IMG/VR virus record: IMGVR_UViG_3300048999_000018
Location: 1 to 53,223 of that record
Length of the DNA: 53,223 bases
Strand: one strand, 5' to 3'
Origin: a virus
Shown: positions 184-50,295 of the stretch, piece after piece
Layout: each line of letters begins with the position of its first letter
How positions within the stretch are numbered: the first letter of the stretch is position 1
Position numbers and translations under genes: made by a program
The notes under the pieces: generated by a model
What the model saw: only the letters and a program-made list of their open reading frames with translations
What the model was told of the DNA's origin: nothing
Database searches by the model: none

Positions 184-453
184 CTAGGCTGACAGTCCGT
201 CAGTCGTCATGAGTGACGATGGATCAGCGATCTTTCGATAAACACCGAGAACGTTCTCACTCACGATCTCATCGATTGCTTGAAGACGAGCAAGCTCCTG
301 ATCAGCTTCTGATAGTTCATCAGATGTCTTGATCACTCTGGCAAGGAAGGCACTGGTGTTGTAGCCGGCGGCCATGTCCCATGCGTACCACTCATCGAAC
401 TTGGTGAATGGATTGAATGGATTGTCCACTGTTGTGAGCATGTAGTCAGCCAT
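184..453 (-). CDS. Conserved phage protein, unknown function
   Basis: 89 residues. It opens with a DNPFNPFTKFDEWYAWD block followed by a helical, acidic body with GYNTSAFLARV; I recognise this pattern from small proteins of many phages of Gram-positive hosts, with no known activity. The start overlaps the stop of the RNA polymerase gene by 8 nt, so translation is probably coupled, and it is the last gene of that operon. A second in-frame ATG at codon 5 is possible. Confidence 0.8.
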   Translation of the reverse strand: MADYMLTTVDNPFNPFTKFDEWYAWDMAAGYNTSAFLARVIKTSDELSEADQELARLQAIDEIVSENVLGVYRKIADPSSLMTTDGLSA

Positions 454-3085
454 TCTCAGTCACCGCACTAAGGCTGCGCTTCAGAGTACTTACTGACACA
501 CCGAGAGCGTCTGCTACTTCAGCTGGGGTGTATCCAGACTGCAGCATGAGCACAGCTCTGTTCTTCTTGGTTGAGGTCATGAGGAGCTTGATCTTGGGTG
601 TGGCCAGCTGCTTGACTTGGTCAAGATCCGAATTGCTCAGGATCTGATTCAGTTTGTTGCTGCTGATTGCACCTGCCTGAATGGCAGCCCATTCTTGCTC
701 ACTGATCTCTATACGCTGCTTCTTGGCGCCTGTTCTGATTCGTGCCTGAGCCAGAGCTTGAGCTTTCAGTTTCTTAATCTCAGAAGCTTCCATATCTGGG
801 TTGGCCTTGGTCTTCTGGTCTACCATGGCGTTTGCCAGGATCTGGGCTTGTCTTTCGAGGGGGCTGTTCCTGAGAGCCAGGTTTAGATTGGCGTCAAGAG
901 TTTTCACTTCCTTGGCATAAGCGAGCTTAGCCGAAGGAGAGTAAGGAATGGGTTTGGTAGAAGCCGCTTCCTTACGTGCTGAGTTAGCCAAGGCCTTCAG
1001 CTTGTTCGAGTGGTCGGCATAGACCTTCTCAATGGGCGTACCAGAAGACAGGCTGTGTGCATTGTCGACGTTGCCCAGCTTTGTCACTTCAATGGTCTTA
1101 GTGACGAGCTTGCCGTGCTTGTCGACGAAGGTCTCGCCTGTGTTCTCGAATACCTTCTTCCCTGTCGCTAGATCGATGGGCCCACCGTTTGCTTTGGATC
1201 GGGGCTTACGATCAGGGATCCTGATTGTCGACGAGATGCCGGCATTCGAGATCAACGTGTTGGCGCCTGCTGTCTTTCCGCCTTGATACTTGGCTTTCAG
1301 AGCAGAGATGCCATTGTCGATGGCCGATTGCTTATAGTTCAGGTTATGCTTCTCAGCATCGATCACAACCATGGAGTGCCGAACTGCTGCAGCAAGCTCG
1401 GTCGTTGACGCTCCCTTAATGGTCATGTCGGTGATGAGATTGGAGACTTTGCCCATCTCCACTTGCTTCGTTTTGGGAGACATCCTCGGCATGCCATCGT
1501 AATGCGGGTAAGCACGCTGAGGGTCGAATCCCTTTAGCCCCTCAAGGGCAGGAGCGGTCTTTACACGGCCGCTATTGTTCGGGATGACCAGAACTGTGTC
1601 GCCGTCAAAGTCGGCCCCTGAGAGGCGTTCTGCGACCTTGCTGTGGATGCCAATGGCGTCCTTAGCATTACCCAGAAGTTTCTTCGCTTCTGGATGACGA
1701 TTGTTGACCGTAAGCTCAGGAATCTCGAAGATACCTCCATGAGGGTAGCGAACCAGAACAACGCGATCACCATCGCGATAGTTGGGCGCATATACCTCAC
1801 CCTCCTTCATGGAGTTGATTGGAAGTATGACGTGAGACCCTTGACGAGGAAGAGCCGCAGCCTTTAGGTGTACAGCCGCAGAGTCCACGTCATCGGCGTA
1901 CGAGTCGAGCAGACGCTTCTTTACTACTGGGTTCGTTAGAGACCTGATTTCGTCAAGCTCACGACTCTTGCGTTCGAACGTCATATCGAGCTGAGACTTG
2001 GCCAAAGCCGGACTCTGCTTCGACAGCATCTGAGAAGAAAGGCTCTTAGACCATTTCTCCCATGCGCCTTCTTCATTGACGATGTTCATGACGCCATGCT
2101 GCCGATCAATGAACGCACCGAAAGGGTTTTCTGGATCGCTCGATACCTCTTTCATGGCATCGAGTTTGTTTCCTGTATTGCTCTTGTTGGTGTTGAAGAC
2201 GAGATCCACGCCAGGAGGAAGGTCGTCTCGGTACATGGCCATACCCTTGAGATAGTGCGTACCGTCCACCGCGATACGTACTTGAGCATAACGGGATTCC
2301 CCGAGAGAAATGTCGTCTACCCCAGGACGAACATAGATAACGCCGTCAGCGTCCGCTCCGCCCTGTTCCGCATACCTTACAGATACACGCTTGGAGCTGA
2401 TCGGGGTCGGAGGCTTGATGTCGTTGTAGGAACGTCCACCGTCGTCCGAGAAGTTGGTGATCTGTTGGATCTTGTCTCGGTTCCGGTACAGCTCTTTGTA
2501 CTCTGTACCGGGAGCAGACAGAACCTTAACCGTGGTCTGATGACGCGTGCCAAGCTGTTCGATCTTGACGTAATCAACCTTATAGCCGTCTTCTTGAAGC
2601 TTGGCCACAGCGATTTTCAGTTTGTCATTGCTGATTCCGAGGTGACGCTCTACGCCAGCGCCGATATCGATATAGCTCTTTTGGGCGACCTGATCCCTGA
2701 GCATGTTCGACGTCGTTTCAAGAACGTCGGCTTTGTCCTTTGCTCCGTCGGCGAGGAGAGCACGAACTGAAGATTCGTTGACTCCCATTTGCTTGCCGAT
2801 GGCAACGTTGGAATAGCCCTTGTCCTTAAGGCGCTGAGCCATTCCAATGTCGGCTTGCTTCTCTGCAGTCTTGGCAATTGACTTGACGGCTCGAAGCTGA
2901 GTGGTCGTGATTCCGAAACCACGAGCAATTTCCGTCTCGCTCATGCCCTTGCTGTGAAGGTCGTCGACAGTGCTGAGGAACGTGCGGTTACGCTCGCTCT
3001 GGGTCTCGCCACTTCCCCAAGGATACCTTCCGGACTTCCGAAGGATTCCGTAGTGCGCGAGATAGTCGTCTTCCTTTACGATCAC
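446..3085 (-). CDS. YonO-like single-subunit DNA-dependent RNA polymerase
   Basis: 879 residues. The catalytic signature is LSGADFDGDTVLVIP (residues 488-502): DFDGD at 492-496 is the Mg-binding loop of the double-psi beta-barrel of RNA polymerase beta' and of the single-chain YonO and crAss-like phage enzymes. It is preceded by RDGDRVVLVRYPHG (438-450), also typical. The N-terminus has HYGILRKSGRYPWGSG (11-26), a short motif seen on many phage proteins, then two helix-turn-helix-like segments (about 41-70 and 78-112); another HTH (TPAEVADALGVSVSTLKRSL) closes the protein. GTG start with strong site CAGGAGG; its first codon overlaps the upstream nuclease stop. It would transcribe phage genes in the host cytoplasm, perhaps from the repeated promoter cassettes; that link is inference. 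Confidence 0.82.
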   Translation of the reverse strand: MIVKEDDYLAHYGILRKSGRYPWGSGETQSERNRTFLSTVDDLHSKGMSETEIARGFGITTTQLRAVKSIAKTAEKQADIGMAQRLKDKGYSNVAIGKQMGVNESSVRALLADGAKDKADVLETTSNMLRDQVAQKSYIDIGAGVERHLGISNDKLKIAVAKLQEDGYKVDYVKIEQLGTRHQTTVKVLSAPGTEYKELYRNRDKIQQITNFSDDGGRSYNDIKPPTPISSKRVSVRYAEQGGADADGVIYVRPGVDDISLGESRYAQVRIAVDGTHYLKGMAMYRDDLPPGVDLVFNTNKSNTGNKLDAMKEVSSDPENPFGAFIDRQHGVMNIVNEEGAWEKWSKSLSSQMLSKQSPALAKSQLDMTFERKSRELDEIRSLTNPVVKKRLLDSYADDVDSAAVHLKAAALPRQGSHVILPINSMKEGEVYAPNYRDGDRVVLVRYPHGGIFEIPELTVNNRHPEAKKLLGNAKDAIGIHSKVAERLSGADFDGDTVLVIPNNSGRVKTAPALEGLKGFDPQRAYPHYDGMPRMSPKTKQVEMGKVSNLITDMTIKGASTTELAAAVRHSMVVIDAEKHNLNYKQSAIDNGISALKAKYQGGKTAGANTLISNAGISSTIRIPDRKPRSKANGGPIDLATGKKVFENTGETFVDKHGKLVTKTIEVTKLGNVDNAHSLSSGTPIEKVYADHSNKLKALANSARKEAASTKPIPYSPSAKLAYAKEVKTLDANLNLALRNSPLERQAQILANAMVDQKTKANPDMEASEIKKLKAQALAQARIRTGAKKQRIEISEQEWAAIQAGAISSNKLNQILSNSDLDQVKQLATPKIKLLMTSTKKNRAVLMLQSGYTPAEVADALGVSVSTLKRSLSAVTENG

Positions 3086-15862: not shown

Positions 15863-18800
15863 CTAGCTCACGAAGTCCTCGAAATCACCGAACTTCTCAA
15901 TGGTCTTTCGAGCCTCATCGGCGAGACGCTCGAAATACATCATGTCGATGATGATATCGCTGTCGGGATCTCCGACTTCAATGGACGTCTCGATCTTGTC
16001 CTTGACCATCTCAGCTTCAAGCCAGAAATAGTCTTTAGTGCCGGCGACGGCATAAGGCTTTTCGTCCTTCACCCGAAGCAGTATTCCGCCACCAGAAGTC
16101 TGATCCACGGGGACGAACAGCCCAGTACGACCGACGAAGTGCATTCCCTCGTAGGAGAACATCGGCTTGTTCACCGCATCGAAGTCGAGGTACATCGCCC
16201 CTTCCTTTACCTGCTTGGTTTCGCACAGGTCCTCGAACTCGATGTCTTCGCCCGTGAAGAGCGTCTTGTAGACGAACGGGTGCTGGAACTGCTTGCCCAC
16301 CGCCGTCCACTTGCGCTCGTAAGCTCCGGGGGGATCTTCCTCCACGGTCTTAGCGATGTACACGGCTTCGTTCACCAGACAGAGATCGTTGTACGTTGCC
16401 TCGTGCTCGAAGTCGTATCCGTACTGCTTTCCGAACTCGACGACCTGAGCGATCATCTCCTTGTCGGCATCGGGAATCTTGATCGAGTCGGTCTTGATGT
16501 GAGCGACCGTGAAACCGCACTCCTGGACGAAGTGCTTGAGGTCGATCATGAACAGCGCACCACGCTTGGCCACGATGTTGTCAACATTCCTCTTGTCCCT
16601 GAAAGGATTCGGGAACGTTGCCGACGTGTAACCGTAGATCGAGTTGATCACGAGCTTCAGGGCGTCTGAGACAGCCTTGGCGTTACTGTCGTCCACCTCG
16701 ATGCCGGGGAGCATTTCTGCAGCCCTACGGAAGTCACCGTGCTTCACAGCAAGGCGAGCCTCGACCAAACGAGCGAACTTCTCGGTATAAGGGCCGAACA
16801 GGTTCAACTTGATGATCGAAGTGGGGTGCATCGACGCAACATCCAGAAGAACGACGTCCTTGTACATGCCAGGTTCGGCATAGACATAGCCGCCTTCCCC
16901 GACGGTCTCGCCTCGATAGGTGCTCTTTTCGAGCTTGTCGAAGGGATCGAACTTGTAACCCGGAAACTCCTTGCTCAGATCCGTGTATACGAAGTCTTTC
17001 TGAGGATCCCTGACGTTGCCGAATATGATCTTCTCGGCATGCTTGCGGGTCGTATCGTTGACTGTGAGCCCACTGAGATTCGCCATGATCTGACGAGCCA
17101 TGAGATCGTTCTTGCGATTCTCAAGCAAGACCTCAGTCGAGACAACATCGTTCGCGCAGTACTCGACAACCTTCGGCCACAGTTCCTTCGGGACCGGCTT
17201 GTCCCAAGGGTGATCCATCTCTTGATGATGAATGCCGAGCTTAATCTGCCACTTCTTCAGCCCCATTTTCTCAGAGGCGAAGTCGTAGATATCGGCGTAG
17301 GAGACGTTGTAGGCCTCACCGAACATGGCGTTCTGATTGCCCGAAATGATCTTCTGCGAGAGCTCGTAAAGCTCCTTGTTGTCGTACCCCATATACGCAG
17401 CCCACAGAATATGGTTGTCGTACTTGCGGTTGTTGAACCCCACCAACTTGTACTGGAGAAGTTGCTCGATTTCCTGAGCACCAGGGTTGATCATCTTTAC
17501 GACAGTCTTTGACCCCTGATATTTCCAGCACACGACGAAGAGGTTTGGGAAGACCTCGACGTCATAAATGACCAAGCGATCGTCCTTGATCTGAGGCTCT
17601 TGTTCCTCGCCGGCGTTTTCCTCAGACTTGAATTGCATCTTCAGAACAGTCTTCAAGCAGATCAACGGCTGATGAGAGCTGTTGTTGGCGAACGCCATGA
17701 TCCTAGGACGCAGATCAGTCACGTCATAGACGATCCCAGACTTGTGAGCATCGTCCAGAATCTTCTGAATGAAATCGATTGACGGCTTGGTGCCCGGGTG
17801 GATCTCCTTCCTCAGATTTCGGGCGATCAGGTCGCGGAGCCCCCTTTCGCTTTGGAGAGTGTTCTTCTCAAGCACTGGCTTCTTCTCCTTGAATGGGAGC
17901 CCGCTATTTATTGTTGCAACGGGCACATTGTTACATTTCGTCAGCTTGCGTCGGAGTGATGAGTTTCCGACATAGACCTTGATCTCGATTCCATCAGAAT
18001 ATACTGACGCAAGTTCCGAAACATCACCGTCGTAGGTATAGTGAAGATGAACACCACCCCCGGATTTGCTGAGCTCGGCATAGGTGGCGGGCCATACGGA
18101 CGCAGCCCCAAGATTTCGTTCGAGGGATTTCTCACCCTTGTCATCCTTCAAATCGAAATCGATCACGATGTGATTCTCTGGAACCTTGACGAAATGCAAC
18201 TTGGTCGTGTCGATATCAGAGAGCTTGGTCTTTACGTTCTCCCATTTCGACTTAGGAGTTTCCTCCTCGGTCCCATACTGAGCCGATTGATCTGCATACT
18301 CAATGTCAAAGATGGATTCGTCTTCGTCCATCACCAACGAATAAGTAGGCGGTTTCGTGATCGGCTCAACAGGAGTTCTGAAAGGTTGTGCTGTGAAGCC
18401 GACGAAATAACTACGCACATCCACGCCATCGACGTTATATCGATCACGAAAGTCCTCGAAGTAGTTTTTGAGTTCTTCGCGGAACTTATGCAAAGGAAGC
18501 TTGTAGTCGAGTTCGCTCTCCAGGCAGTACTCCTTGTACAAGACATAAGCCTGTTTCAGACTCGTGCCGTTCTGCTCTTTGAAGATATCGTAATTCGCTT
18601 CGATGAAGTTGAAGAACACATCCGTCTGGAGCATCATGTCCAGTGGGCGGTACGAATTGTAGTAGTTCTTCCCCATTTGGCGATAGACTCCGAGGCAGTG
18701 GTATGCAATTGCACCAAGCTCGAAATCGATTTGCGACATCAATGCGTAGTAGTGATCCGGATCAAACTTGTTGCCGGTAGGTTTCACGTCGATAAGACGG

Positions 18801-19666
18801 CGAATAAGACCAGACTTGGCGTCGGTGATCTTCACAGGCTTGTTGGTGCCCATGAACAACAGAGCGTGGATCTTCGCCATGTATCCGGGCTTGTACTTCT
18901 CGTTGATCAGCATGGCGTCGTGCCCAACAATCGAGTTGAGCTTGCTGTTGTCGTCGATCTTGGACAGATCGCCATCGTGCTGAATCGCAACGAGTGGGTT
19001 GCTCTTGAATGCTTCCGTGGAGAACGAGTTGTTGTTCCCCACGAGAGCCTTCGCCTCGAACATCGCCACATAGCCAACGAACAGCTTTTCGACGATCTTC
19101 AAGATGGTGGACTTACCTGTGCCACCGGGTCCGTAGAACACCAAGAACTTTTCGATCTTCTTGGCGTCACCAGAAATAACGGACCCGATAGCCCATTCGA
19201 TCTTTGCTCGTTCCTCTTCCGAGTAGAGGAATCCAACTAGCTCGTCCCAGGCCTTGATGTCACCTTGAGCGAGATTGTACGAAAGCCGGCGGCTGGTGTA
19301 ATCCGACTTCTTCACTTCTGTGTTGGCGAACGTCAATTTCATGTCAAGCTGATGAGAGTTATCGCTGACGTTCTTGCAGAACTTCTTGAACTGGTTCCAG
19401 CCGTTGTTGCTGTACTCTTCGAGATACTTCGGACTGCACGAAACCCCGTTTGCCCGCTGTTCCTCGGCGTACTTCTTGATCTCTTCATCCACAAGACGAA
19501 CGACGTCGTATTCGTCAGTGGACCAGAGTTTGGCTTCTTCGTCCCATATGGCATAGAACGATTGCCCCCGGACCATCAAGTCCTTGGATCTGCCGACAAC
19601 GAAATCGGGGCGCACCTCGACGATACCGCCCCGGACCTCTTTCGTGCTAATCCGAAAGAAATCCAT
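15863..19666 (-). CDS. Helicase-primase-exonuclease-family B DNA polymerase fusion
   Basis: 1267 residues in one open frame. SF3/D5 helicase: Walker A GPGGTGKS (179-186), VAIQHDGDL Walker B region, FMGTNKP sensor (271-277), and a winged-helix-like block (368-405). Primase-like core: DFD (503-505) and SKSGGGVHLHY (533-543), matching motifs I and II of archaeo-eukaryotic primases. Exonuclease: Exo I D702/E704, Exo II near D750, Exo III YCAND (836-840). Family B polymerase: motif A DVASMHP (942-948), motif B KLVINSIYG (1004-1012), motif C KTDS (1058-1061; the usual first Asp is Lys). Together these could unwind, prime, copy and proofread phage DNA. ATG with AAAGGAGG. Polymerase and helicase are firm; the primase assignment rests on two motifs. 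Confidence 0.85.
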   Translation of the reverse strand: MDFFRISTKEVRGGIVEVRPDFVVGRSKDLMVRGQSFYAIWDEEAKLWSTDEYDVVRLVDEEIKKYAEEQRANGVSCSPKYLEEYSNNGWNQFKKFCKNVSDNSHQLDMKLTFANTEVKKSDYTSRRLSYNLAQGDIKAWDELVGFLYSEEERAKIEWAIGSVISGDAKKIEKFLVFYGPGGTGKSTILKIVEKLFVGYVAMFEAKALVGNNNSFSTEAFKSNPLVAIQHDGDLSKIDDNSKLNSIVGHDAMLINEKYKPGYMAKIHALLFMGTNKPVKITDAKSGLIRRLIDVKPTGNKFDPDHYYALMSQIDFELGAIAYHCLGVYRQMGKNYYNSYRPLDMMLQTDVFFNFIEANYDIFKEQNGTSLKQAYVLYKEYCLESELDYKLPLHKFREELKNYFEDFRDRYNVDGVDVRSYFVGFTAQPFRTPVEPITKPPTYSLVMDEDESIFDIEYADQSAQYGTEEETPKSKWENVKTKLSDIDTTKLHFVKVPENHIVIDFDLKDDKGEKSLERNLGAASVWPATYAELSKSGGGVHLHYTYDGDVSELASVYSDGIEIKVYVGNSSLRRKLTKCNNVPVATINSGLPFKEKKPVLEKNTLQSERGLRDLIARNLRKEIHPGTKPSIDFIQKILDDAHKSGIVYDVTDLRPRIMAFANNSSHQPLICLKTVLKMQFKSEENAGEEQEPQIKDDRLVIYDVEVFPNLFVVCWKYQGSKTVVKMINPGAQEIEQLLQYKLVGFNNRKYDNHILWAAYMGYDNKELYELSQKIISGNQNAMFGEAYNVSYADIYDFASEKMGLKKWQIKLGIHHQEMDHPWDKPVPKELWPKVVEYCANDVVSTEVLLENRKNDLMARQIMANLSGLTVNDTTRKHAEKIIFGNVRDPQKDFVYTDLSKEFPGYKFDPFDKLEKSTYRGETVGEGGYVYAEPGMYKDVVLLDVASMHPTSIIKLNLFGPYTEKFARLVEARLAVKHGDFRRAAEMLPGIEVDDSNAKAVSDALKLVINSIYGYTSATFPNPFRDKRNVDNIVAKRGALFMIDLKHFVQECGFTVAHIKTDSIKIPDADKEMIAQVVEFGKQYGYDFEHEATYNDLCLVNEAVYIAKTVEEDPPGAYERKWTAVGKQFQHPFVYKTLFTGEDIEFEDLCETKQVKEGAMYLDFDAVNKPMFSYEGMHFVGRTGLFVPVDQTSGGGILLRVKDEKPYAVAGTKDYFWLEAEMVKDKIETSIEVGDPDSDIIIDMMYFERLADEARKTIEKFGDFEDFVS

Positions 19667-23142: not shown

Positions 23143-23177
23143 TAGGGGTCTCATTATAGCCCCTGTTATTACTGCGA
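23143..23177 (-). promoter_or_regulatory. Promoter-like cassette, copy a
   Basis: Minus-strand order: TCGCA, an A-rich spacer with ACA and GG, TATAAT, then GAGACCCCTA, and 13 nt later the ATG. The stop codon of the upstream gene lies inside the element. One of eight near-identical copies. Confidence 0.75.
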
Positions 23178-25856: not shown

Positions 25857-25894
25857 GATGTACTCCTTGTTTGATTGTCAGAGTTGAAACGAAA

Positions 25895-25926
25895 AAACCA
25901 TAAGCCGGGTTAGGGTCTTATGGTTT
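25895..25926 (-). terminator. Terminator hairpin, conserved-loop type
   Basis: AAACCATAAG (25895-25904) pairs perfectly with CTTATGGTTT (25917-25926) around GGGTTAGGG-type sequence. It follows the stop of the 25951 gene on the minus strand and is followed by TTTTTTCG. Confidence 0.8.
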
Positions 25927-25950
25927 GTTGAGCGTCCTTGAGTTGGTGTA

Positions 25951-26158: not shown

Positions 26159-26193
26159 TAGGGGTCTCATTATACCCCATGTATTTTCTGCGA
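26159..26193 (-). promoter_or_regulatory. Promoter-like cassette, copy b
   Basis: TCGCA, A-rich spacer ending TACATGGGG, TATAAT, GAGACCCCTA on the minus strand, directly before the gene starting at 26145. A terminator hairpin lies just upstream at 26202-26239. Confidence 0.75.
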
Positions 26194-26201
26194 ATCGAGA
26201 T

Positions 26202-26239
26202 AAAAACCTAAAGACCGGGTTAGGGTCTTGTTGGTTTTT
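26202..26239 (-). terminator. Terminator hairpin, conserved-loop type
   Basis: Nested stems AAAAACC/GGTTTTT (26202-26208, 26233-26239) and AAGACC/GGTCTT (26211-26216, 26224-26229). It ends the transcript of the gene at 26260-26436. Confidence 0.75.
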
Positions 26240-26450: not shown

Positions 26451-26485
26451 TAGGGGTCTCATTATAGCCCCTGTATTTCTTGCGA
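26451..26485 (-). promoter_or_regulatory. Promoter-like cassette, copy c
   Basis: TCGCA, A-rich spacer ending TACAGGGGC, TATAAT, GAGACCCCTA, upstream of the gene starting at 26436. It begins directly after the stop of the 26487 gene. Confidence 0.75.
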
Positions 26486-27973: not shown

Positions 27974-27997
27974 AGTTAGATCTCCATTTCAAAAACA

Positions 27998-28020
27998 TAA
28001 AACCCGTGTTAAGGGCTTTA
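27998..28020 (-). terminator. Terminator hairpin, conserved-loop type
   Basis: TAAAACCC (27998-28005) pairs with GGGCTTTA (28013-28020) with one mismatch; followed on the minus strand by TATGTTTTTG. It follows the stop of the gene at 28045. Confidence 0.65.
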
Positions 28021-28044
28021 GAGGTTTTGTATGAAAACAACTTT

Positions 28045-28246: not shown

Positions 28247-28281
28247 TAGGGGTCTCATTATATGCCGTGTTTTTTCTGCGA
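28247..28281 (-). promoter_or_regulatory. Promoter-like cassette, copy d
   Basis: TCGCA, GAAAAAACACGGCA, TATAAT, GAGACCCCTA on the minus strand; AGGAG and the ATG follow within 14 nt. Confidence 0.75.
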
Positions 28282-28287
28282 AGACGA

Positions 28288-28317
28288 AACTCAAAGCCCT
28301 TGTTAGGGCCCGGAGTT
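28288..28317 (-). terminator. Terminator hairpin, conserved-loop type
   Basis: Stem with outer AACTC/GAGTT (28288-28292, 28313-28317) and inner GCCC/GGGC around TTGTTA. It follows the stop of the gene at 28333. Confidence 0.65.
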
Positions 28318-28332
28318 GGTTGTGAGGGTTGT

Positions 28333-28586: not shown

Positions 28587-28621
28587 TAGGGGTCTCATAA
28601 TAGGCCGTGTTTTTTCTGCGA
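28587..28621 (-). promoter_or_regulatory. Promoter-like cassette, copy e
   Basis: TCGCA, GAAAAAACACGGCC, TATTAT, GAGACCCCTA; identical to copy d outside two positions. It precedes the gene starting at 28572. Confidence 0.75.
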
Positions 28622-28655
28622 AGTTGTTAGAGATCACTCTCATTTTGACGAAACA

Positions 28656-28678
28656 TAAAGGCCGGGTTAGGGCCTTTA
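28656..28678 (-). terminator. Terminator hairpin, conserved-loop type
   Basis: Perfect 8-bp stem TAAAGGCC/GGCCTTTA with loop GGGTTAG. It ends the transcript of the tiny gene at 28691-28804 and lies before cassette e. Confidence 0.8.
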
Positions 28679-28690
28679 GAGGTTTCGAGA

Positions 28691-28818: not shown

Positions 28819-28853
28819 TAGGGGTCTCACTATAATCCTTGTAATTCCTACGA
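28819..28853 (-). promoter_or_regulatory. Promoter-like cassette, copy f
   Basis: TCGTA, A/T-rich spacer, TATAGT, GAGACCCCTA: the most diverged of the eight but still clear. AAAGGCCC and the ATG at 28804 follow. Confidence 0.7.
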
Positions 28854-28865
28854 TTGGCCAAAACG

Positions 28866-28888
28866 TAAAGGCCGTGTTAGGGCCTTTA
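28866..28888 (-). terminator. Terminator hairpin, conserved-loop type
   Basis: Perfect stem TAAAGGCC/GGCCTTTA with loop GTGTTAG, followed by CGTTTTGG; follows the stop of the gene at 28903. Confidence 0.8.
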
Positions 28889-28902
28889 GAGGTTCTTGAG
28901 AT

Positions 28903-29147: not shown

Positions 29148-29181
29148 TAGGGTCTCATTAAAAGCCATGTTTTTCTTGCGA
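29148..29181 (-). promoter_or_regulatory. Promoter-like cassette, copy g
   Basis: TCGCA, A-rich spacer ending ACATGGCT, TTTAAT, GAGACCC-TA (one C shorter than the others). It precedes the GTG start at 29133. Confidence 0.7.
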
Positions 29182-29573: not shown

Positions 29574-29608
29574 TAGGGGTCTCACTATACCCTATGTATT
29601 ATATGCGA
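29574..29608 (-). promoter_or_regulatory. Promoter-like cassette, copy h
   Basis: TCGCA, spacer ending TACATAGGG, TATAGT, GAGACCCCTA; rightmost of the eight copies, before the TTG start at 29558. Confidence 0.75.
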
Positions 29609-43572: not shown

Positions 43573-45633
43573 CTACGCAGCCGGACGCTTGAAGGTCCAC
43601 TCGTCGACGCCGGCCTGACCGGTGACCGCGAAGAAGTATCCGGAAGCCGGGAGGGCCTTGACCTTCAGAGTGGCACCAGCCGCGAGAGCGGTCTGAGCGC
43701 CAGCACTGAGGGTAGCGTTGGTGTCGGCATTCTTGTAAACGACGCCGGTCTGCGTCGGGATGGTCGTGACACCCGTGGCAGAAACGAACGTCGGGGCGGT
43801 CGGCGAAACCAGGACGTTGCCAGAAGCGGTCTTGTTGATGATGAGAGCAGCCTTGATCTTGACCATGGCGCCGGACATCCGGGTCTCGATCAGGTACTTG
43901 TACTGGTTGTAGTCGATGTCGAAGTCATCGAACATGTTGACCTCGCCGCCCTTGTCCGTACCGACGTTGTAGTCGGTCAGGTTGACGACGATGCCCAGCA
44001 GGTTCGGGAACCGGTCCATCGGGTCCACGGCGACGATGGAATCCACGTTCATCGCTGCAGCCAGTTCGGCGATGTTCGCGTACATCCGACGCAAGTTGGC
44101 GTCACGCGTCAGGAGCATCTTGTTGATGGTCCGCTGCGTGCTGTAGAAGGTCGGCCGGCCAGTTCCCTTGTAGAACTCGCTCGCGGTCATGACCTGGTCC
44201 ACGACCTCCGAGTAACTGGAGTTCGCGTCATCCACGTTGACGTTGACCTGAGTGGCGTACAGCTCGTTCTCGTTGATGATCGAGCGGATGCCCTCACCAC
44301 TCGAAGCAGCCATCGGGTCATTGATGTGGTCCGGGTCGTCCACGTCACGGCCATCGCCGACGAGGATCGCAACGGCGATCTCCTCCATCAACATGATCCG
44401 CATCTCCAGCTTGAGCCAGGAGACGACATCGAAGTCAGTGATGTCGACGATGTTGTTGCGGTCGAGCTTCTGCTTCTTGTAGATCGTGGTCGGGGTGGTG
44501 GAACGGCTGGTGAGCGCGTACCACTCTTCCTTCTTGTACGTGCCGGTGATGTAACCCTTGGCACGGGCCTCGTCCTGCGTGATGTCCGCGGTGATGGACT
44601 TGATCCGGGCGAACGGGCTCTTGCGAGTACCGTCGATGACACCCTGAACCCAAGCCATGTTGCGGCTGTTGAAGTCCGGAGTGTTGTTGAGAGTCTTCGG
44701 GTCCGGGAAGAGGGCTTCGATGTTCTCGATGCCGTGCTGCAGGGCATAGCCCTCGACAGCGGTTCGGAGGGATCCGCTCTTCTTGGCGTCCTCGAAGATG
44801 GTCTTCAGATCGCTGTGCGACACCAGGTGTCGCTCGACACCATCGCCGTGCTGGATCTTGTTCTTGTCGGCCTGCTCGAACACGTTGGTCACGGAGCCAG
44901 TTCCTTCCTGGTGGACTACAACACCCTCTTCGGGCTTCTTGTCGTCGGGGTTGACGCCCTCTTCGGGCTTCTTCTCGTCCGGCTTGGGCTCGACGGCCGT
45001 CTGCGCGATGGCAGCATCCTTCGCCGCGAGAGCTTCGCTTACGACGATCGCAAGGACTTCCTTCTGATCGTCATTGAAGGTGTCCAGAACATCCTGAACA
45101 GTGGCTCCGGGAGCTGCGTGCTGAATGACGGGCTCCTCGGGCTTCTTGTCGAGGATGATCTCGATTTCGAGGCCCGTGTGAATGACAGCTTCGTCAGTCA
45201 GAACTTCGATGTCGTTCGGGTCATCGCTGTGCTTGAGCTGAACGTAGTCGATGACCGCCTCAGGATTGGCTCCGGCGAGCACGAGACTGACCTCACGAAT
45301 TTCTCCGTGGACGACAGTCTGACCCTTCATCACCAACTTGTTGGCGTAGATCGACATCGCCTTGATGTCCTTGTGCTGAACATACTCGCGAGCGTCCTGA
45401 CCCTGCTTGGTTCCGTTGAAGAAACCGTAGGCGTAAACGCCGTCCTTGCGGGCTTCGAGAACCGCGTGACCGAGAACGTTCTCGATGTTGCTGTGTCCGT
45501 GCTGGTAGACGAGCGGAAGCTGCATCTGATCCATGTGCGCAAACGCCAGGGGGCTGATGGTCTTACCATCGGAGCACTTGACGTTGGCCTTCGTGGCGTA
45601 ACCGCTGAAGTCAGCGTTGGAGTTGTCTCCCAT
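43573..45633 (-). CDS. Prohead protease-scaffold-major capsid fusion
   Basis: 686 residues. Residues 1-130 carry an HK97-type prohead protease (QLPLVYQHGHSNIENVLGHA with His45/His47; REVSLVLAGANP with Ser116). An acidic, Pro/Glu-rich region (about 150-260, with DEKKPEEGVNPDDKKPEEG repeats) can act as scaffold. From about 290 to 610 follows an HK97-fold capsid (RNMAWVQGVIDGTR; YSTQRTINKMLLTRDANLRR; IVNLTDYNVGTDKG), and the end is an Ig-like domain. Cleavage would free the capsid. ATG with AGGAGGGAACAG. Confidence 0.88.
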   Translation of the reverse strand: MGDNSNADFSGYATKANVKCSDGKTISPLAFAHMDQMQLPLVYQHGHSNIENVLGHAVLEARKDGVYAYGFFNGTKQGQDAREYVQHKDIKAMSIYANKLVMKGQTVVHGEIREVSLVLAGANPEAVIDYVQLKHSDDPNDIEVLTDEAVIHTGLEIEIILDKKPEEPVIQHAAPGATVQDVLDTFNDDQKEVLAIVVSEALAAKDAAIAQTAVEPKPDEKKPEEGVNPDDKKPEEGVVVHQEGTGSVTNVFEQADKNKIQHGDGVERHLVSHSDLKTIFEDAKKSGSLRTAVEGYALQHGIENIEALFPDPKTLNNTPDFNSRNMAWVQGVIDGTRKSPFARIKSITADITQDEARAKGYITGTYKKEEWYALTSRSTTPTTIYKKQKLDRNNIVDITDFDVVSWLKLEMRIMLMEEIAVAILVGDGRDVDDPDHINDPMAASSGEGIRSIINENELYATQVNVNVDDANSSYSEVVDQVMTASEFYKGTGRPTFYSTQRTINKMLLTRDANLRRMYANIAELAAAMNVDSIVAVDPMDRFPNLLGIVVNLTDYNVGTDKGGEVNMFDDFDIDYNQYKYLIETRMSGAMVKIKAALIINKTASGNVLVSPTAPTFVSATGVTTIPTQTGVVYKNADTNATLSAGAQTALAAGATLKVKALPASGYFFAVTGQAGVDEWTFKRPAA

Positions 45634-49042: not shown

Positions 49043-49951
49043 CTACTTCTTCAACAGACCAGCAACTTGCTTTGCAGCTACTCCGGCCGCAGCCTTTGTG
49101 AGTTCTTGCTTGCCGATGCTCAGAAGCGTGTCTGTAATGAACTTGGTGGTTGCCTTCCGACCGGTTGCCGGCTGAAGACGAGTGAATTGCTGTTCCAAGT
49201 TCATCCTCGTGACGAGATCCTGAAGCTCTTTAGTAGTGAGAGCCTTAGTGCCTCCGGACTTCACCTTGGCCTTGGACTCAGCGGCTCGTTGAGCATCATC
49301 AGAAGACGGATGTGCCGTCGGAGTTCCCTTGCCTCCACGAACACCCCACTTCATACCCTTGACGCCGAAATGCTCAAGAACGTCATCTACAGCTGCTCGG
49401 CCCAGATCGGCCTGAGACACAGCAACCTCCATGTCGCCTGAGTATTCGAGCTTGAATGTGGGACCCGCTGAGTCGCTCGTCCACAAAGCGACTCGATCGA
49501 AGTTCACCCACGAGAATCCAGGGAATTCTCTGTCGTCCTTCTTGGCTGGGTTGTCCGGGAACCCCATCGTCAAATGCGGATTCCACTCGTCGAACTGACT
49601 CGTCGATAGAAAAGCTTTCGAAATCAGTTCGTTCTTCAGAAGCTGACCGCGGAATGTATCCACAGCCTTAGTCCACTTCTTGTTGAAGAACAATACATCA
49701 GCTTGGCTTGTTCCCAACACACCGCGTTCCTTCACTTCCAGCCCGAAAGGCTGAAGCAGAGAAGCCGCATGTTCTACGAATCCAGTGACGAGAGTCAACT
49801 CAGACGCGTCATAACCAGGAGAACCCAAGTACAAAAGAGTCAAGTGTGGTTCTTTATCACTTGAGAATTTCAGCACTGGATCAGATTCGGGCGGGAGAGC
49901 TACGATGACAACCTGTTGATTCTTACCGACTAGGGATTTGGGTTCGTCCAT
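49043..49951 (-). CDS. 2H phosphodiesterase fused to a HFGVKGMKWGVR domain
   Basis: 302 residues. Two HxT motifs, EPHLTLLYLG (His36, Thr38) and WNPHLTMGF (His126, Thr128), define a 2H phosphoesterase, the fold of RNA ligases/cyclic phosphodiesterases and of phage Acb1, which destroys CBASS signal nucleotides. Residues 190-205 hold VLEHFGVKGMKWGVR, a motif repeatedly seen on phage structural-region proteins, then a helical tail. Its place between connector and terminase suggests it may be packaged in the virion. Substrate unknown. ATG chosen for AGGGGGATTC. Confidence 0.8.
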   Translation of the reverse strand: MDEPKSLVGKNQQVVIVALPPESDPVLKFSSDKEPHLTLLYLGSPGYDASELTLVTGFVEHAASLLQPFGLEVKERGVLGTSQADVLFFNKKWTKAVDTFRGQLLKNELISKAFLSTSQFDEWNPHLTMGFPDNPAKKDDREFPGFSWVNFDRVALWTSDSAGPTFKLEYSGDMEVAVSQADLGRAAVDDVLEHFGVKGMKWGVRGGKGTPTAHPSSDDAQRAAESKAKVKSGGTKALTTKELQDLVTRMNLEQQFTRLQPATGRKATTKFITDTLLSIGKQELTKAAAGVAAKQVAGLLKK

Positions 49952-50295
49952 GAATCCCCCTCTCTCACAACGTTGAGACGCCATTCAAGTTCTTTGATCT
50001 GCTTGTCCATCGCATCGAGAACGAAAGAAGTAATCGTGGCGTTATCGAATAGAAGCCGAACTCTGAGACCTATGTAACTCTTGACAGAAATCAGTCTCAA
50101 ATCATCACCGAGAAAGGCGTCCCACGTGGGGGTAGAATTCTCGATCATGTAACCTTCAGGCGGACCGATACCCAGTTGAGTAAGAGTCGAGAACACTGAG
50201 TTGATGTGCAACAGAATAACGGGATCGAAAACCGTTAGACTCGCATCGACTCCGAGAATGTTTTTGATACTTGTCAGAATGCTGGTTTCAGCCAC
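49930..50295 (-). CDS. Head-tail connector (gp6-like)
   Basis: 121 residues, all-helical: SILTSIKNILGVDASLTVFD, ILLHINSVFSTLTQLGIGP, VKSYIGLRVRLLFDNATI and IKELEWRLNVVRE are typical of siphophage connector proteins. GTG at 50295 has AAGGAGG 8 nt upstream. Unusually it lies before the terminase instead of after the capsid gene. Confidence 0.75.
   Translation of the reverse strand: MAETSILTSIKNILGVDASLTVFDPVILLHINSVFSTLTQLGIGPPEGYMIENSTPTWDAFLGDDLRLISVKSYIGLRVRLLFDNATITSFVLDAMDKQIKELEWRLNVVREGDSWTNPNP

Follow-up and report, generated by a model that had tools for sequence, protein, structure and literature searches.

A predicted single-chain, two-barrel phage RNA polymerase with a DUF7211-like N-terminal tag and a candidate promoter array

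Phage two-barrel RNA polymerases (RNAPs), virion RNAPs and the polymerase YonO have been described before (PMC5467207, PMC10770324, PMC7824862). YonO transcribes late genes, and for single-chain polymerases of its type both the promoter and unaided promoter recognition have been stated as open questions (PMC5467207). Thermus phage P23-45 has promoter arrays of its own, and its virion RNAP, gp96, is fused to the tape measure protein (TMP) (PMC10770324). The phrog_4291 family analysed here is uncharacterised: the literature that we searched, which excluded most subscription papers, held no account of its function, tag or promoter, and no experiment that we found demonstrates that a member is active as an RNAP, uses a promoter or resides in the virion.

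The polymerase core and its helix-turn-helix units

The window – the whole 53,223-base stretch of a virus record that we analysed – carries on its minus strand an open reading frame (446..3085) that starts with GTG and encodes 879 amino acids (Table 1). The original prediction had named two motifs in its product, and both are real: HYGILRKSGRYPWGSG occupies residues 11-26, and SGADFDGDTVLVIP holds DFDGD at residues 492-496. The protein matches the phrog_4291 profile over its full length (1349 bits, residues 3-873). Relatives are present in 250 GenBank phage records, from phages of Arthrobacter, Gordonia, Streptomyces, Lactococcus, Curtobacterium, Rhodococcus, Microbacterium and Faecalibacterium, and are encoded on at least 518 IMG/VR stretches; their GenBank labels are 'helix-turn-helix protein', 'RNA-dependent RNA polymerase' and, in two among the records listed, 'structural protein'.

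While a PDB sequence search with the polymerase returned no relative, fold searches with an AlphaFold2 (AF2) model, built from a 57-sequence alignment (mean pLDDT 82.7), did. Foldseek retrieved P23-45 gp64, P74-26 gp62, QDE-1 and RDR2 at E 1e-7 to 1e-8 (about 1e-8 for P23-45 gp64 and QDE-1), and with VIA-align the best fold match was QDE-1 (2j7n; Z 16.7, model residues 225-713), with Z 13.6 to P23-45 gp64 (8f72) and about 13.5 to P23-45-type phage polymerases. The model thus resembles two-barrel RNAPs instead of showing the right-hand polymerase fold of T7-like single-subunit RNAPs, as far as the Foldseek matches go. Since the fold matches run across residues 225-713, the core covers both barrels; a predicted structure lacking the second double-psi barrel would have refuted the proposed two-barrel polymerase, and the model holds both. 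DFDGD is invariant in the 57 aligned proteins and its block is kept in 81 of the 81 proteins extracted from IMG/VR relatives; both it and YAQVRIAVDGTHYLKGMA, a block further upstream, vary hardly at all in the family, and the DFDGD block, like the N-terminal tag, is far from chance. DFDGD is the equivalent of the aspartate triad of YonO (PMC5467207). As judged by the model, the protein belongs to the two-barrel RNAP superfamily (two double-psi barrels and a DxDxD triad) and is a single-chain polymerase of this type, its catalytic activity being inferred.

Three regions resembling helix-turn-helix (HTH) units had also been proposed, and here Pfam matches in the protein and its orthologues agree with helix triplets in the AF2 model (29-45/50-57/61-88, 93-100/104-111 and 838-849/854-861/865-878). 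The C-terminal unit matches HTH_23 (2.5e-10) and Sigma70_r4_2 (4.9e-7) at residues 841-878; matches at residues 46-68 and 82-122 are weaker, and the N-terminal matches are stronger in the orthologues of Lactococcus phage 1706 and Circum. Several units match sigma-70 region-4 models. The built-in units probably stand in for a sigma factor, although promoter reading by them is an inference.

Both the phrog_4291 and the NCBI names have the enzyme as an RNA-dependent RNA polymerase (RdRP), and both the best fold match, the RNAi polymerase QDE-1, and a PF05183 RdRP match in the 1706 orthologue (E 7e-5) are compatible with such a function. However, QDE-1 structures with DNA templates exist, and the fold therefore leaves the template undecided, while YonO, whose core is the same, has a strict preference for DNA (PMC5467207). 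As the HTH units and the array of conserved candidate promoters likewise favour a DNA template, we consider RNA-dependent synthesis very improbable.

Table 1. Features of the window discussed in the text
Feature	Position	Strand	Basis or remark
Conserved 89-aa gene, phrog_4303, directly downstream of RNAP	184..453	-	Function unassigned
Predicted single-chain two-barrel RNA polymerase, 879 aa, phrog_4291	446..3085	-	Profile match, AF2 model, fold matches
C-terminal HTH, residues 838-878, sigma-70 region-4-like	452..574	-	Pfam matches
Two-barrel catalytic core (predicted), residues 225-713	947..2413	-	VIA-align to QDE-1 2j7n and P23-45 gp64 8f72
Catalytic loop DFDGD, residues 492-496, putative metal-binding aspartates	1598..1612	-	Invariance in alignments
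First-barrel block YAQVRIAVDGTHYLKGMA, residues 266-283, invariant Lys280	2237..2290	-	Alignment; barrel assigned by fold-match position
Two N-terminal HTH units, residues 29-111	2753..3001	-	AF2 helices; Pfam here and in orthologues
N-terminal tag EDDYLAHYGILRKSGRYPWGSG, residues 5-26, DUF7211-like, predicted disordered	3008..3073	-	Alignment, AF2, HMM tests
Candidate RNAP promoter	23147..23177	-	Motif match
Candidate RNAP promoter	26163..26193	-	Motif match
Candidate RNAP promoter	26455..26485	-	Motif match
Candidate RNAP promoter	28251..28281	-	Motif match
Candidate RNAP promoter, 1 mismatch	28591..28621	-	Motif match
Candidate RNAP promoter, 1 mismatch	28823..28853	-	Motif match
Candidate RNAP promoter, 1 mismatch	29151..29181	-	Motif match
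Candidate RNAP promoter	29578..29608	-	Motif match
Capsid maturation protease / major capsid fusion	43573..45633	-	phrog_3270, 717 bits
Second tagged protein: 2H-phosphoesterase-like N-terminal half and DUF7211 tag VLEHFGVKGMKWGVR, residues 198-216	49043..49984	-	Adjoins terminase

The N-terminal tag and the question of virion location

In the 57-sequence alignment, residues 9-26 of the tag have a mean column identity of 0.86, as compared to 0.73-0.78 for the catalytic barrels, and the flanks are variable (0.46 and 0.54). That a segment disordered in the model is nevertheless conserved above the catalytic barrels suggests that residues 5-26 are a docking peptide. The literature that we searched makes no mention of the letters of the tag.

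Head-module proteins of the same phages bear the tag [DE]xxLAH[YHF]GVKGMKWGVR, which corresponds to Pfam DUF7211 (PF23847). DUF7211-type tags were found on head-module proteins in all ten phages checked: the bearers include the product of window 49043-49984, RosaAsantewaa gp6, Duffington gp18 and gp19, 1706 orf7, seven ReqiPoco6 proteins and four Rima proteins. Outside the head module, the RNAP is the sole tagged protein that we found in the genomes examined. The RNAP tag and DUF7211 proteins have in common an acidic-x-x-L-A-H-Y-G box at the N-terminus, after which the RNAPs continue with R-x-S-G-R-Y-P-W-G-S-G and DUF7211 with K-G-M-K-W-G-V-R. Scored with an HMM built from 69 DUF7211-type tags of the same phages, real RNAP N-termini had a median of 11.7 bits, whereas none of 1600 shuffled N-termini exceeded 8.7 bits and the rest of the RNAP did not exceed 3.2; with the shared box [DE]xxL[AE]H[YHF]G, the resemblance of the RNAP tag to DUF7211 exceeds chance. 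RNAP N-termini reach 15-17 bits (15.3-16.8) with the Pfam DUF7211 model and miss its cut-off of 27 bits, which makes the RNAP tag a relative of DUF7211 and no formal member.

The full HYG..R.SGRYPWGSG form occurs on RNAPs only among the GenBank phages and PHROGs searched. Taken by itself, this speaks against a shared virion tag, a reading overturned by the comparison of the DUF7211 box. The original prediction, according to which the tag recalls those of virion-region proteins, is borne out by the box on head-module proteins and the HMM scores, but not by the RYPWGSG half, which among the collections that we searched is confined to RNAPs.

It had further been proposed that the polymerase may be packaged in, or attached to, a phage structure. 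In GenBank, the 1706 orthologue, orf75 (about 44% identical), is labelled 'structural protein', even though some 30 kb separate it from the structural module; the label is shared by orf7 of the same phage, which bears two DUF7211 tags. On genes without a structural homologue, the most likely source of such a label is virion proteomics, although we have the database annotation only. The corresponding label in ReqiPoco6 was assigned by similarity to 1706. Since two small 1706 genes outside the structural module, orf62 (L082:39353-39631) and orf71 (L082:43959-44312), bear the label as well, co-purification or contamination is possible; orf62 and orf71 are either more virion cargo or contaminants. 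The proposed packaging has the 1706 label and the kinship with DUF7211 on its side, but it is inferred without direct measurement.

The main rival explanation is that the RNAP uses the same promoters without being a virion protein: the enzyme would be made early from a host-read promoter and transcribe the small-gene region (early/middle), with the tag serving some other docking to a phage or host partner. This is compatible with the genomic context, as the RNAP gene lies beside replication and nuclease genes outside the structural operon. The neighbourhood is constant – helicase, HNH, VRR-Nuc, RecB-like exonuclease, RNAP and a small gene last – and the start codon of the polymerase overlaps the stop codon of the exonuclease gene upstream. 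Furthermore, among phage proteins the fold is matched most closely by P23-45 gp64 and P74-26 gp62, and both YonO (PMC5467207) and P23-45 gp64 (PMC10770324) are non-virion RNAPs. However, the structural-protein label of the 1706 orthologue and the kinship of the RNAP tag with that of head-module proteins speak against a non-virion enzyme, and we judge this explanation unlikely. The RNAP is encoded on 11 of 13 long contigs with relatives of the protease/capsid fusion (43573..45633), which leaves no clean RNAP-negative control group.

Several observations concern other genes. A small gene is found at the same place after the RNAP in every annotated genome examined (1706, ReqiPoco6, RosaAsantewaa, Duffington and Circum), and the 89-aa product of that in the window (phrog_4303) is a possible RNAP partner. 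A 2H-phosphoesterase-like domain (PF13563) combined with a DUF7211 tag is encoded beside the terminase both in the window (49043-49984, minus strand; E 2e-5) and in a second contig (L392:14111-15727; E 1e-6); if the tag loads cargo, this protein could be an enzyme delivered by injection, perhaps a phosphodiesterase acting in counter-defence. In phage P118, the gene between terminase and capsid (L394:5202-6497), where the portal gene stands, bears the label tail tape measure, which is probably wrong. Finally, a helicase/primase/polymerase protein (window 15863-19666, minus strand) holds the position of 1706 GP55, a 'four-in-one' replicase (PMC12205980).

A candidate promoter array and the proposed role of the polymerase

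Repeat analysis revealed an element, absent from the original prediction, that is common to the window and RosaAsantewaa and repeated before small genes: a 35-bp motif, TCGCA-N6-ACA-N5-TATARTGAGACCCCTA, refined on 555 unique sites to T-CGCA-N-R-WWWW-ACA-N-G-S-C-Y-TATARTGAGACCCCTA. A ribosome-binding site and start codon follow in 530 of these sites, at a median distance of 21 nt, and no conserved element is present upstream of TCGCA. The window has eight copies, as compared to none in 100 shuffles. The array is placed between the last tail/lysis gene and the replicative polymerase in every one of the seven annotated genomes examined. Among the literature matches listed for the sequence (20 of 22), all were unrelated, and we found no relevant paper mentioning it.

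The motif is associated with the RNAP: it is present in 30 of 36 RNAP-encoding contigs, with all 135 sites on the RNAP strand (a reversed control pattern gave 3). At the chosen stringency it is absent from the remaining six, among them 1706, which has the variant CGCATGTTTTACATATACTATAGTAGA with spacing exactly as in the Actinobacteria phages, though its host belongs to another phylum. Conversely, 34 contigs of 34 kb and longer bear the motif, and 29 of these encode the RNAP (in one case cut at the contig end); one further contig has only a weak fragment match. The motif-bearing contigs without RNAP are L123, L126, L154 and L163; L123 and L154 look truncated, given that the replicative polymerase is near the contig end. 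No motif site occurs in 543 kb around yonO-like genes. These statistics establish the co-occurrence of motif and RNAP, and recognition of the one by the other is inferred.

L163 (755-3139, minus strand), on which no RNAP was found, has a variant promoter with TTTCA for the ACA box and CGCG for CGCA in about eight of nine copies, a variant of use for testing RNAP-promoter co-variation. Among 84,980 host genomes (257 Gb), the full pattern occurs on three contigs of 3-4 kb only (L309, from an Acidobacteria MAG, with seven copies at no more than one mismatch, L310 and L311); these small host-assembly contigs are probably phage DNA binned into host genomes. In the window, repeated hairpins (25892-25930, 26197-26237, 27986-28026, 28280-28320, 28644-28684 and 28854-28894), with a loop of about CCCTAACCCGG and a T-rich stretch after it, lie downstream of small genes, so that many of these resemble single-gene units, each with promoter, ORF and terminator.

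Could the motif be unrelated to the RNAP, which would then have its targets elsewhere? The core includes TATAAT, the sigma-A -10 hexamer, as expected of a host-sigma promoter, and the HTH domains of the RNAP could also serve as a DNA-binding regulator acting at a repressor or operator site. An unrelated host-sigma or operator site is, however, difficult to reconcile with the missing -35 element and the lack of conservation upstream of TCGCA, with the sigma-70-type matches of the region, none of which coincides with a motif site, with the near-absence of the motif from the host genomes and with the identical spacing in Actinobacteria and Lactococcus phages; moreover, conservation continues through the presumed start site, unlike in typical sigma promoters. 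A further point against it is that the motif is direct, strand-fixed and about 21 nt before start codons. We therefore regard a motif independent of the RNAP as quite improbable.

Our best reading, which we consider probable though by no means secure, is that of a virion-packaged, DNA-dependent polymerase with its own 35-bp promoters for early genes. The RNAP would be synthesised during infection, loaded into the head at assembly via its DUF7211-like N-terminal peptide, ejected with the DNA into the cell, and would there start transcription at the TCGCA-N6-ACA-N5-TATARTGAGACCCCTA arrays before small early genes. Presence in the virion of the window phage, the tag as a loading signal and ejection are all inferred, as are use of the promoters by the enzyme and the timing, 'early' being a statement about gene order without transcript data. 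More tentatively still, as a proposal that could fall either way, the DUF7211-type peptide may be a general head-loading signal, by which a large clade of Actinobacteria and Lactococcus phages packs an RNAP and further cargo such as 2H phosphoesterases, the RNAP with its sigma-like HTH units reading a promoter conserved across phyla and early infection proceeding without the host polymerase.

The family offers a sharply defined candidate promoter that exists in hundreds of natural variants, and since its phages grow on laboratory strains of Streptomyces, Gordonia, Arthrobacter and Lactococcus, the promoter question is directly testable. Packaging, if confirmed, would make the enzyme a free-standing virion RNAP of the two-barrel type, compact at about 98 kDa; DUF7211 would gain its first function, that of marking cargo, and the names 'RdRP' and 'HTH protein' now in use would be corrected. 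If the whole proposal is true, the virus may start reading its own genome without the host polymerase. For expression work in Actinobacteria, a compact polymerase with its promoter has practical appeal as well.

Comparison with known polymerases

YonO of Bacillus phage SP-beta and the window RNAP are both single chains of about 840-880 aa with a DxDGD loop and both barrels, and their profiles align over a common R-x-P-H ... D-x-DGD ... G-x-x-SN-x-IT pattern. However, YonO is assigned to phrog_8308, the profile of which matches the window RNAP over residues 425-504 only (E 0.0014), and direct comparison is not significant with either blastp (E 0.052) or hhalign (E 0.075); for this reason we do not claim membership of the YonO family. 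Going by these alignments, the two enzymes are placed in a common superfamily and in different families. The YonO-like character originally ascribed to the window RNAP therefore holds for superfamily and DxDGD landmarks, but not for family, the similarity being remote, whereas the suggestion that its layout differs from that of YonO was correct: YonO has neither a Pfam HTH nor a tag, and the window RNAP has both. Moreover, YonO reads late genes, while the candidate motif of the window RNAP precedes early-region genes (no transcript data).

Thermus phage P23-45 provides two further comparisons. Its non-virion RNAP gp64 is a two-barrel enzyme (Z 13.6 to the window RNAP), and its virion RNAP gp96, a precedent for the packaging proposed here, is fused to the tape measure, whereas the window RNAP is free-standing, with HTH units, a short tag and a different promoter. 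The virion RNAP of crAss-like phages, said to have been described by Drobysheva in 2021, is reportedly a two-barrel enzyme with a DFDGD-type loop that is packaged in the virion; it is also said to be much larger than the window RNAP and to have its gene adjoining virion genes.

QDE-1, the best fold match (Z 16.7), and RDR2 have the two-barrel core as well; they are cellular eukaryotic enzymes of RNA silencing, and we know of no such tag or HTH layout in either. As for the tag, in phage T4 the internal proteins and Alt, which are injected, enter the head by means of a short N-terminal peptide, the capsid targeting sequence, a likeness to the RNAP tag that we offer as an analogy only.
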